A stretch of 64,000 nt of DNA from Pseudomonadota bacterium (GTDB taxonomy: Bacteria; Pseudomonadota; Gammaproteobacteria; Burkholderiales; REEB80): assembly GCA_028873515.1 (NCBI GenBank), contig JAGWIG010000007.1:1-64000 (forward strand), written 5' to 3'. Below, one piece after another: positions 7,560 through 28,125 of the stretch. The notes beneath the pieces are model-generated. The model saw only the letters and a program-made list of their open reading frames with translations. It ran no database searches and was not told the origin of the DNA. The first letter of the stretch is position 1, and each line of letters begins with the position of its first letter. A program made the translations under genes and the position numbers.

Positions 7560-7736
7560 ATGCAACAGCCATTTATCGACTTTCTTCCCACCCTCGCCGC
7601 TATTCTTTTAATTCTAGGCACCCTCATCCAGTTTGCAAGTTTTCGCAAAGCCACTCCAAACAATGCCCCTGCTTTTAACGAGATTCAGGATGATGCAGAA
7701 ATTAGTGCCACCTATTTCAGCATCCGTGGTTTGTAA
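7560..7736 (+). CDS. Small single-pass membrane protein (58 aa), unknown function
   Basis: MQQPFIDFLPTLAAILLILGTLIQFASFRKATPNNAPAFNEIQDDAEISATYFSIRGL; clear AAAGGAG Shine-Dalgarno just upstream; hydrophobic N-terminal half. Below the size cutoff of the ORF track. Confidence 0.65.
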   Translation: MQQPFIDFLPTLAAILLILGTLIQFASFRKATPNNAPAFNEIQDDAEISATYFSIRGL

Positions 7737-7757
7737 GCAATGAGCTACACGACAAAG

Positions 7758-7801
7758 CGCCGGACCAGGGAGATTATGGATAATACTAATCTCAACCGGC
7801 G
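7758..7801 (+). other. Two-tier stem-loop downstream of the small ORF (possible terminator or small RNA structure)
   Basis: CGCCGG-ACCAGG-GAGATTA-(TGGATAATAC)-TAATCTC-AA-CCGGCG followed by TTATTGTT. Confidence 0.5.
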
Positions 7802-7935
7802 TTATTGTTGGATAAAACAACGCAATATGCTCTCAGATTGAATCTTCTCCTTCAAGAATTTCAACGTATATGCATACGATCATCAAGTTTTCCTGCTAAC
7901 TGCCGATAGAAGATTGACCGATCGGAAAGTCTGCC

Positions 7936-9561
7936 ATGCATAATTGCTTTAAGCTTATCCGGCCAGCCATCCTGGCTTTGCTGCTTCTTGGGCTTACACA
8001 AGCCGCATATGGGCAGTTGACGCAACTCAGACTTCCCCCCTCCCGTTTGCGAGAACGTCTTATGCGGGAAGACATAATCAAAAAAAATCTTGCCAGGCTC
8101 AAAATAATGCAATTGAACGAACCTGAACGCAAGACTGCAGACTGGTTCGAGGAAAACCGTTACAACCCTCAGTTACGGTGGATTTTTTTATCTGAAATGC
8201 CCAAAGGGGCAGATCTGCATAATGACCTCATGGGTGCCGCATTCGCTGAAAACCTTTTGAAATTTGCAGCACAGAATGGAAAATGCATTAATACAGTAAA
8301 CTATTCCCTTGAAGATCCTCCTTGCCATCCAGTCACCAACCCTCCTGCAACTGAAGTCATAAATGATGATGAACTGCGAAACCTCGTCATCGATGCCTGG
8401 TCCATGCGAAATTTTCCAGCTAACAAGAACGGTTACAGGCATTACCTCTCAACATTCAGAAAATTTGAGTCCGCTATTCAAGGCCATAAAGGTGACATTC
8501 TCGCTGAAATTCTGCAACGTGCCGCCAAGCAAAATGTCCTCTATGTGGAAATCCCATTGCCTATCGCAAGCAAACTGTCGCGCGAATTAGGTGATCGCGC
8601 AGGTATTGGCGCCAGCTATAAAAGCATTTTCAAGCACATGCGTCAATCTGGGCTCGATATGGTTATTGATGCGGCACGAGTTGACCTGAATCGCATGACC
8701 CAAAATCTTAATGAAAAACTGGGATGCAATTCTACTCATTCAAAACCCGGGTGCTATGTAAAAGCACGTTTCCTGTACCAGGTTGACCGTAATCTACCTC
8801 CTAATGAAGTGTTTGCTGAAATGGCAGTTGGCTTTATGCTTGTAAAAACCGACCCCATGGTTGCTGGAGTTAACTTATCCATTCCTGAAGATGGAGGGGT
8901 AGCTATCAGGGATTACAGCAAACAAATGGACATGCTGGGCTATTTTCACAAAAAATTTCCTACAGTATATTTAAGTCTGACTGCAGGGGATCTCGTCCAG
9001 GGACTGGTTCCACCTCAAGAACTAACTTTTCATATTCGTGAGGCGATTAGTACTGCCCATGCAAGCCGAATCGAACAGGGAATCGACATTGCTTATGAAA
9101 AAAATCCTGAAAAACTTATGAATTCAATGAGACAAAAAAAAATCCTGGTACTCAGCTGTCTTGCGACAGACAATAACTTTCTTGGACTCAATAACGAAAA
9201 CGTACCCTTAACCTTTTATCTCAATGACCATGTTCCAGTTGCACTTGCAACTTGCGATGAAGGGATAAACCGCTCGGATCTGACCAGTGAATTCGAAATC
9301 GCTTCCACTAGTTTTGATATTGGCTATCCTGAGCTTAAGGAATTTGCCCGCAACAGCCTGGAATACAGCTTTCTGGGAGGAGGAAGCCTATGGGGAAACT
9401 ATGACAGGCTCATCCGTGTAACACCCTGCCTGCAGGATATCCCAGGAAAAGGGGAACCCAAGGGGAAATGTGCGGCCTATCTGGCAGACAATCTTCGTGC
9501 CAAGGAAGAATGGCAGCTTGAAGCACAATTTTCCCGATTCGAAGCCAATTATGATCATTAA
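7936..9561 (+). CDS. Secreted adenosine-deaminase-family protein, probably catalytically altered
   Basis: 541 aa with signal-peptide-like N-terminus (LIRPAILALLLLGLTQAAYGQ). ADA-fold landmarks GADLHNDLMGA, LSLTAGDLVQGLVPPQELTFHIREAI, HASRIEQGID, ALATCDEGINRSDLTSEF. Confidence 0.8.
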   Translation: MHNCFKLIRPAILALLLLGLTQAAYGQLTQLRLPPSRLRERLMREDIIKKNLARLKIMQLNEPERKTADWFEENRYNPQLRWIFLSEMPKGADLHNDLMGAAFAENLLKFAAQNGKCINTVNYSLEDPPCHPVTNPPATEVINDDELRNLVIDAWSMRNFPANKNGYRHYLSTFRKFESAIQGHKGDILAEILQRAAKQNVLYVEIPLPIASKLSRELGDRAGIGASYKSIFKHMRQSGLDMVIDAARVDLNRMTQNLNEKLGCNSTHSKPGCYVKARFLYQVDRNLPPNEVFAEMAVGFMLVKTDPMVAGVNLSIPEDGGVAIRDYSKQMDMLGYFHKKFPTVYLSLTAGDLVQGLVPPQELTFHIREAISTAHASRIEQGIDIAYEKNPEKLMNSMRQKKILVLSCLATDNNFLGLNNENVPLTFYLNDHVPVALATCDEGINRSDLTSEFEIASTSFDIGYPELKEFARNSLEYSFLGGGSLWGNYDRLIRVTPCLQDIPGKGEPKGKCAAYLADNLRAKEEWQLEAQFSRFEANYDH

Positions 9562-24039: not shown

Positions 24040-25137
24040 ATGCTGGAAGTCAATATTAAGCCTGTATGGTTGTTTCGCACCGAATCAGGTGAAGATTTCG
24101 ATTTCCAGCTTCTGAATCTTTTACGAGAAATCCATGCAACAGGAAAGCTTACCCATGCTTCTTTACGTGTAGGCCTGTCTTACCGTCATGCCTGGAACAT
24201 GATTGCAAGATGGTCTGAATTTTTTAGCAATCCCCTGGTGCAAATGGAAAAGGGACGAGGCGCCAAACTCACCTTGCTGGGTGAAAAGCTTCTTTGGGCT
24301 GAAGAAAGGATTCAGGCCCGTCTGGCCCCCCAGTTCAAGAATCTCTGCAGCGAACTTGAACTCGAAATAAACCGGGCACTAAACGATTCCAAGCAAGTAC
24401 TACGGATTCGGGCTAGCCATGGATATGCCATTGCCAAACTTGTGGAGCACATGAGTCGCTGTATCGATATTCAGCTTGATCTTCAATATCTTGAAAGTCG
24501 CGAAGCTCTGCAAAGCCTAGAAAGACATGAATGTGAACTGGCCGGTTTTCATATCCCGGAAAGCCCTCTTGGCGAAGAAGCGATCGATCGGTTTTACCCA
24601 TGGTTTCGTCGACGTCCCCAAACCACCATTCATTTCGTCACACGTCGACAGGGACTGATTCTTGCAAAGAACAACCCTTTGAACCTTAAAAAATTCTCTG
24701 ACATCACTAGACATGGCGTGCGTTACATCAATCGTCAACAAGGATCTGGGACACGCATGCTTTTTGAGCTCCTGCTTGAACATCATCAAATCGATCAGGA
24801 AATGATTAATGGCTATCAGCAGGAAGAGTTTACACATGACGCTGTCGCTGCATTTGTAGCTAGCGGAATGGCAGATGCCGGGCTCGGCATTGAAGCTGCT
24901 GCACGTCATTTCGACCTTGAGTTCATACCACTTGCCCGGGAACACTATATGCTTGCCTGTCGTCTTGAGGCACTGGAAACACCTCGTATCCGTGATCTCT
25001 TAATCCTCCTGAAAACACCAAGTTTTCGTGAATCCATCAACAGCATACCCGGCTATGCTGCTCCTTGCGCAGGTGAAGTAGTGAAGCCTGGAGAGCTATT
25101 TAAGCTTAAAAGTGAGATTCCCGAGCCGACTTCCTAA
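24040..25137 (+). CDS. ModE-like HTH plus substrate-binding-like domain regulator, divergent from the fds operon
   Basis: LLREIHATGKLTHASLRVGLSYRHAWNMI HTH followed by a PBP-like domain (INRQQGSGTRMLFELLLE, EFTHDAVAAFVASGMADAGLGIEAAA). Confidence 0.85.
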   Translation: MLEVNIKPVWLFRTESGEDFDFQLLNLLREIHATGKLTHASLRVGLSYRHAWNMIARWSEFFSNPLVQMEKGRGAKLTLLGEKLLWAEERIQARLAPQFKNLCSELELEINRALNDSKQVLRIRASHGYAIAKLVEHMSRCIDIQLDLQYLESREALQSLERHECELAGFHIPESPLGEEAIDRFYPWFRRRPQTTIHFVTRRQGLILAKNNPLNLKKFSDITRHGVRYINRQQGSGTRMLFELLLEHHQIDQEMINGYQQEEFTHDAVAAFVASGMADAGLGIEAAARHFDLEFIPLAREHYMLACRLEALETPRIRDLLILLKTPSFRESINSIPGYAAPCAGEVVKPGELFKLKSEIPEPTS

Positions 25138-27048: not shown

Positions 27049-28125
27049 ATGATAGAAGTAAATTTAAAAGCTGTCTGGCTTTTTAGCACCCCAGTTGGCC
27101 ATGAGCGCGAAGTTCCGGTTTTCAATTTGCTTCAAGCAATCGACAACTCTGGAAAACTTACCTTCGCAGCACGTGAAGTAGGACTGTCTTACCGCCATGC
27201 ATGGGATCTTCTTGACAAATGGGGGAATTTTTTTGGTCAGCCTCTTGTGCGGATGCAACAGGGTCGCGGAGCAGCGCTAACTCCCCTCGGTGAAAAGCTT
27301 ATCTGGGCAGACAAACGGGTGAAAGCACGCCTAACTGCGCAATTGACCAACCTGGCTTCAGAACTAGAGGTAGAAATAAACCAGATTGTGTCAAGTGAAC
27401 GTCAGGTCGTGAAATTACATGCAAGCCATGGATTTGCTGTTGCAGAAATGCGGGAGCGACTTCATAACAATCCTGCCGTTCAGCTCGATCTCCAGTACCG
27501 GGGAGGAGAAGAAGCCCTCGCGGAACTATGTCGATCTGAATGTGATCTTGCAGGCTTTCACGTCCCAACTGGAGAAACCCGGAAAGAATCCCTGGCCCGC
27601 TATGCAAAATGGCTAAAGCCTGGAAAAAATTACCGGGTCATCCGTTTTGTAACCCGGCAGCAAGGTATTATGGTCAAAAAAGGTAATCCTCTTCATATTT
27701 CAACTCTTTCTGACCTCACCAATCAGAATATCCGTTTTGTCAATCGTGAGCCCAGCTCAGGAACACGCATGCTATTCGATGTTTTGCTGGAGAAAGAAAA
27801 ACTGATACCAAACCAGATTCAGGGTTACCAGAAAGAAGAACTGACACACAATGCAGTAGCCGCATATGTTGCAAGTGATATGGCTGATGCCGGTTTTGGT
27901 GTCGAGGCCGCAGCCAGACAGTTCAACCTGGATTTCATCCCATTAAGCCATGAAGATTATTATTTATTATGTCGTCAGGAAACGCTCGAAAAACCAGGTG
28001 TCAAGGAAATAATCAAGCTTCTTAAGAATGAGTCGTTTCATAAAGCAATCAACCAATTACCTGGATATTCCTCTTCCAATTCTGGTGAAATCGCCACGCT
28101 CGCAGACGAATTCAAGACAATTTGA
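27049..28125 (+). CDS. Second ModE-HTH/substrate-binding-like regulator, paralog of 24040-25137
   Basis: Co-linear similarity to the first copy over the full length (KLTFAAREVGLSYRHAWDLLDKW; VNREPSSGTRMLFDVLLE; ELTHNAVAAYVASDMADAGFGVEAAA). Confidence 0.85.
   Translation: MIEVNLKAVWLFSTPVGHEREVPVFNLLQAIDNSGKLTFAAREVGLSYRHAWDLLDKWGNFFGQPLVRMQQGRGAALTPLGEKLIWADKRVKARLTAQLTNLASELEVEINQIVSSERQVVKLHASHGFAVAEMRERLHNNPAVQLDLQYRGGEEALAELCRSECDLAGFHVPTGETRKESLARYAKWLKPGKNYRVIRFVTRQQGIMVKKGNPLHISTLSDLTNQNIRFVNREPSSGTRMLFDVLLEKEKLIPNQIQGYQKEELTHNAVAAYVASDMADAGFGVEAAARQFNLDFIPLSHEDYYLLCRQETLEKPGVKEIIKLLKNESFHKAINQLPGYSSSNSGEIATLADEFKTI

Follow-up and report, generated by a model that had tools for sequence, protein, structure and literature searches.

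The gene at positions 7936 to 9561 of the window, by which we mean the whole 64,000-nucleotide stretch analyzed here, probably encodes a conserved, exported pseudoenzyme descended from an active secreted bacterial adenosine deaminase (ADA): its zinc centre and general acid/base set would have been dismantled and fixed anew, and its remodelled pocket would now bind a ligand or act structurally. We refer to this product, and to a second group of proteins with altered sites found in the same order, as pseudo-ADAs. The evidence consists of the replaced residues, their conservation in an orthologue at the same locus, and a census in which all other full-length relatives keep the canonical set.

Pseudoenzymes are a known kind of protein. 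In the amidohydrolase superfamily, pseudo-members such as the pseudo-dihydroorotases and the CRMP proteins have lost their metal ligands and kept the barrel for another role; the window protein resembles them in being an amidohydrolase-type barrel without metal ligands, but belongs to a different family. In the literature searched, from which subscription journals were mostly absent, we found no description of a pseudoenzyme in the ADA/ADGF family, bacterial members included. If our reading is true, it would provide a clear example, in bacteria, of a pseudoenzyme derived from an exported deaminase, and a simple structural hypothesis, namely the exchange of a zinc site for a cysteine pair. It also carries a warning for annotation, since pseudo-ADAs pass the Pfam cut-off and would be labelled adenosine deaminase.

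Fold and replaced active-site residues

The open reading frame starts at an ATG and is uninterrupted by stop codons, so that the first-pass annotation was right to describe it as full-length at 541 aa (coordinates of all features are collected in Table 1). The protein matches the Pfam profile A_deaminase (PF00962) with 58.5 bits against a cut-off of 27, the best stretch being residues 367-480, and scores 58.3 bits with TIGR01430, far below the equivalog cut-off of 216.55. Modelled with AF2 on the family alignment, it is predicted to adopt the TIM-barrel ADA fold with a mean pLDDT of 94.5. The best Foldseek matches of this model are the Helix pomatia ADGF-type AMP deaminase (9nte), human ADA2 (3lgd) and classical ADAs; 89 PDB matches were obtained at E <= 0.001, and among the 50 matches listed all are ADA-type. 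An alignment restricted to six pseudo-ADA sequences gave a poor model (pLDDT 58.8), which was left unused, so the good model leans on the canonical homologues. Outside the replaced residues, sequence comparison finds the fold signature intact, as the first-pass annotation stated. The N-terminus is hydrophobic (hydropathy peak of 2.7 at residue 11), and an AXA-like site is visible by eye in both the window protein and its orthologue. No RNA family was found close to the gene.

Table 1. Features of the pseudo-ADA gene, in window coordinates
Feature	Position	Strand	Basis
ADA/ADGF-fold pseudo-deaminase gene (putative), 541 aa	7936..9561	+	ORF, profile, AF2, Foldseek
Predicted Sec signal peptide, residues 1-27, AYG/QL (orthologue AYA/QL)	7936..8016	+	by eye and hydropathy
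Additional N-terminal helix, residues 35-57, kept in genus orthologue	8038..8106	+	AF2 secondary structure (block pLDDT 83 to 95), alignment
Zinc-ligand motif 1: H95 kept (mouse H15), D97 for H17 (orthologue Ser)	8218..8226	+	alignments, codons
TAGD: T349 for zinc ligand H214, D352 for general acid E217	8980..8991	+	alignments, codons
E380-Q381 for G-H238 (general base)	9073..9078	+	alignments, codons
Strand beta7 region: L406 (was Glu), C408, T411 (was Ser), D412 (was Asn)	9151..9171	+	conservation, codons
End of strand beta8: C440 for zinc ligand D295; D441 (D296) kept	9253..9258	+	alignments, codons
Three family-wide cysteine pairs C117/C130, C264/C273, C498/C512, and candidate fourth C408/C440	8284..9471	+	cysteine columns; pairing inferred
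Cysteine codon starts (C117/C130; C264/C273; C498/C512)	8284, 8323; 8725, 8752; 9427, 9469	+	

Secreted bacterial members of the ADA/ADGF family have been described (Skaldin et al. 2018, as cited in PMC10358891). The window protein shares with this family (ADA2, CECR1; PF00962) a predicted signal peptide, the TIM barrel, the cysteine pairs and the order of motifs, and differs from it by the substitution of three of the four zinc ligands and of the general acid and base, as well as by the additional N-terminal helix. The classical ADAs (TIGR01430; mouse and human ADA1, Salmonella ADA 6n9m) align with the C-terminal half of its barrel, residues 366-480, but the window protein lacks their catalytic residues, is predicted to be exported and is about 200 aa longer. 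Judged by fold and motif order, the predicted product belongs, over its full length, to the secreted bacterial ADA/ADGF-like family; judged by the residues tested, functional adenosine deaminase status would be excluded.

Positions H15, H17, H214, E217, H238, D295 and D296 of mouse ADA correspond in the window protein to H95 (codon CAT), D97 (GAC), T349 (ACT), D352 (GAT), Q381 (CAG), C440 (TGC) and D441 (GAT). In alignments with nine named relatives and with relatives from further genomes, LHND, TAGD, RIEQG and TCDEG fall column-for-column on the LH.H, HAGE, RIGHG and [ST]DDEG of the homologues, and thus alignments and codons both confirm the altered motifs reported earlier (H17D, H214T, E217D, H238Q, D295C). 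Shifted residues were considered as substitute ligands, and no homologue alignment offered a candidate. As only H95 and D441 are kept, five of the seven positions are replaced; the zinc ligands H15, H17, H214 and D295 read H, D, T and C, a loss of three out of four, and the general acid E217 and general base H238 have become D352 and Q381.

The first-pass annotation, in stating that most catalytic residues were replaced, was correct for these positions but understated the extent of the change. G380E (which turns RIGHG into RIEQG), E406L, S411T and N412D affect positions that are 98-100% conserved in canonical members, and other pocket residues (F171, V315, H423) are changed too. A Fisher test for a concentration of the losses, among invariant positions, on the seven mechanistic ones is not significant (P = 0.10), because the losses extend to further invariant positions, which in most cases probably line the pocket.

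In mouse ADA, His214 is a zinc ligand; the zinc-bound hydroxide is generated by His238, to which Glu260 (by motif, position 406) is hydrogen-bonded, and N1 of the purine receives a proton from Glu217 (PMC9483566). Zinc-dependent deamination is very unlikely where His238, three of the zinc ligands and the counterpart of Glu260 are all missing. We have high confidence that a protein with these residues would neither bind zinc in the ADA manner nor deaminate adenosine.

Conservation and distribution of the altered sites

The window's family is represented by two genomes, both of one genus. The second (G001) carries an orthologue with 64-66% identity, which reads HSTDQCD at the seven positions where the window protein reads HDTDQCD; T349, D352, Q381 and C440 are common to both proteins, as are E380, L406, T411 and D412. 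Gene order is common to both genomes (pepN, DnaQ-like exonuclease, parC, pseudo-ADA, metR, metE), the pseudo-ADA gene being divergent from parC and convergent with metR, and none of these neighbourhood genes points to a ligand or partner. Between the two genes dN is 0.26 and synonymous sites are saturated, which indicates that selection has kept both reading frames; since the neighbouring proteins are 65-75% identical, the pseudo-ADA evolves at about their rate. Sequencing error and gene decay are ruled out by the substitutions common to two separate genomes and by the synonymous saturation, in agreement with the earlier opinion that this is not a decaying gene.

Of the 17 canonical-conserved positions altered in the window protein, the orthologue repeats the new residue at 15, whereas identity at variable positions is 62% (binomial P = 0.019). 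The result lends modest support to a constraint on the remodelled pocket, which would be held rather than drifting. The catalytic residues have been lost from a reading frame that purifying selection has maintained, as expected of a pseudoenzyme.

Our census covered genomes of the order, class and phylum (1,299 counted), named matches and plasmid records. Outside the two pseudo-ADA groups, all 56 full-length relatives (two of which, L007 and L051, are identical proteins) read HHHEHDD and have E406, G380 and S411, and three plasmid homologues, from Nostoc, Streptomyces and Sphingobium, retain the canonical motifs. In about 1,300 genomes, altered sites are confined to the window's genus (2/2 genomes) and to a single further genus of the order, f37/g37 (six of nine); no further pseudo-ADA was found beyond these two genera in the genomes of order, class and phylum or in the plasmid records. 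A second order-wide search with a pseudo-only alignment, on a nearly identical genome set, added nothing, and no relatives were found in phage and viral collections. This contrast with canonical homologues, together with the orthologue and the coding constraint, bears out the candidate pseudoenzyme status first suggested for the gene. A second PF00962 protein is absent from all eight pseudo-carrying genomes, the window's included, so ADA activity may be missing from them altogether.

Two observations concern canonical relatives. On pNsp_b, a conjugative plasmid of Nostoc, an adenosine kinase gene adjoins the gene for a canonical adenosine deaminase of the secreted type (L143). In one member with canonical C-terminal residues (L063, G724:C34:14128-15541), a frameshift or a sequencing error divides the coding sequence between two adjacent frames.

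A second genus and the number of origins

In g37, the pseudo-ADA proteins (L014, L026-L029, L032) read D, E/A, N, E, Q/S, C, D at the seven positions, and their genes lie at a fixed, conserved locus (bamD/rluD-pgeF-ZIP-rimO-pseudoADA). The pseudo-ADA gene overlaps the end of rimO by 4 nt and closes the run formed by rluD, pgeF, a ZIP transporter gene and rimO (L020, L103-L106). PgeF-type proteins have reported purine nucleoside activity, a possible link that may deserve a look. In the other three g37 genomes (L137-L139) the gene is missing after rimO and no remnant was detected there, a pattern of clean presence/absence and not of decay; elsewhere in two of the three genomes there is a canonical protein from another subfamily (L040, L041).

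The g37 proteins resemble the window protein in having D295C, in the loss of H238 (to Q or S) and of zinc ligands, and in possessing the same eight cysteines. They differ from it in carrying Asp at H15, Asn at H214 and Arg at S411 while retaining E217, in their rimO locus, and in being without the additional N-terminal stretch.

Whether both genera inherited a single ancestral loss or lost the site in parallel can be approached from the trees, which give diverging answers. When every column is used, the two groups come out as sisters, modestly supported (81/88). Once the motif columns are removed they separate, and 6% of bootstrap trees join them, although an AU test fails to reject a single pseudo-ADA clade (p = 0.206). 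D295C, which takes two nucleotide changes and is present in both groups, argues a little for one origin, and the identical cysteine sets point the same way. The different loci and the low mutual identity (32-38%, no closer than either group is to canonical members) argue a little for two. We regard a single loss as a serious possibility, somewhat short of even.

The candidate cysteine pair, the pocket and possible roles

Beyond the signal peptide, the proteins of both pseudo-ADA groups contain exactly eight cysteines. Six make up the family-wide pairs 117/130, 264/273 and 498/512; the other two are C408 on strand beta7 and C440 on strand beta8. Position 440 is never Cys among the 56 canonical proteins, and the residue equivalent to Asp295 has become Cys in both pseudo-ADA groups; C408 occurs in 14 of the 56, most of which have seven cysteines and hence one unpaired. 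Since C440 and C408, on neighbouring strands, complete a set of eight, we propose a cross-strand disulfide instead of zinc. We hold with moderate confidence that a C408-C440 disulfide would replace the metal and stabilize the emptied mouth of the barrel.

The sequence of changes that we favor is as follows. An active secreted deaminase would have given rise to a product exported to the periplasm or outside, with the ADA/ADGF TIM barrel; its zinc centre and general acid/base set would have been dismantled and a new form fixed; C440, the former zinc ligand, would pair with C408 and close the emptied barrel; and the still-acidic pocket (D352, D441, D412, E380) may serve as a non-catalytic site where a small ligand, nucleoside-like or of another kind, is bound, the protein being a sink, carrier or sensor. 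That the pocket would bind a small ligand, as opposed to being a plain scaffold, we propose with low confidence. The first-pass suggestion of a purine-binding or sensing protein gains from the retained acid at 352 and from D441, through which a purine could be contacted in part, and is weakened by the changes at S411, N412, F171, V315 and H423; purine binding is only a guess.

The main rival, which we consider unlikely, is a protein-protein or envelope structural role for which the pocket is merely plugged. Substrate-pocket residues were indeed lost along with the zinc ligands, and an additional N-terminal helix is conserved; against this stand the new pocket residues common to the orthologues above background (15/17) and the entry of the charged residues E380 and D412 into the pocket region.

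H95, C408, C440 and D441 could form some other site. As H95 and C440 occupy the positions of two ligands to one zinc ion, they should lie close together, and both are kept in the orthologue, while C408/C440 are kept in the g37 proteins too; these points favor a new enzyme with different chemistry, built either on C440, H95 and D441 as a Cys/His/Asp site or on H95, C408 and C440 as a thiolate metal site. We judge such an enzyme rather improbable: H95 is Asp in g37, position 97 varies (D/S in the window's group, A/E in g37), and where an exported protein already has three cysteine pairs, a further pair such as C408 and C440 would usually form a disulfide. Doubtful to a greater degree is the bolder proposal that the deaminase zinc centre was replaced twice, independently in one order and by the same cysteine pair, so that a secreted purine deaminase became a purine receptor or carrier, devoid of catalysis, in the periplasm or outside the cell. 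Some amidohydrolase-superfamily members function with altered metal sites, which counts, as do the intact fold, D441 and the acid at 352, for a weak or altered zinc deaminase or hydrolase persisting through alternative ligands. This last explanation is scarcely credible given that the general base is gone along with three of the four zinc ligands, that position 97 differs between orthologues, and that catalysis in mouse ADA depends on His238, Glu217 and the hydroxide bound to zinc (PMC9483566).

Elsewhere in the window, positions 7560-7736 (+) contain an unannotated gene that has a strong ribosome-binding site and encodes a small protein of membrane type, 58 aa long (MQQPFIDFLPTLAAILLILGTLIQFA...). 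It is conserved in the genus relative (L019:7886), and a hairpin with a fold z-score of -4.2 lies after it, near 7750-7812. Two PBP_like proteins (PF12727) are encoded a short distance apart at 24040-25134 and 27049-28122 (+), near formate dehydrogenase genes.
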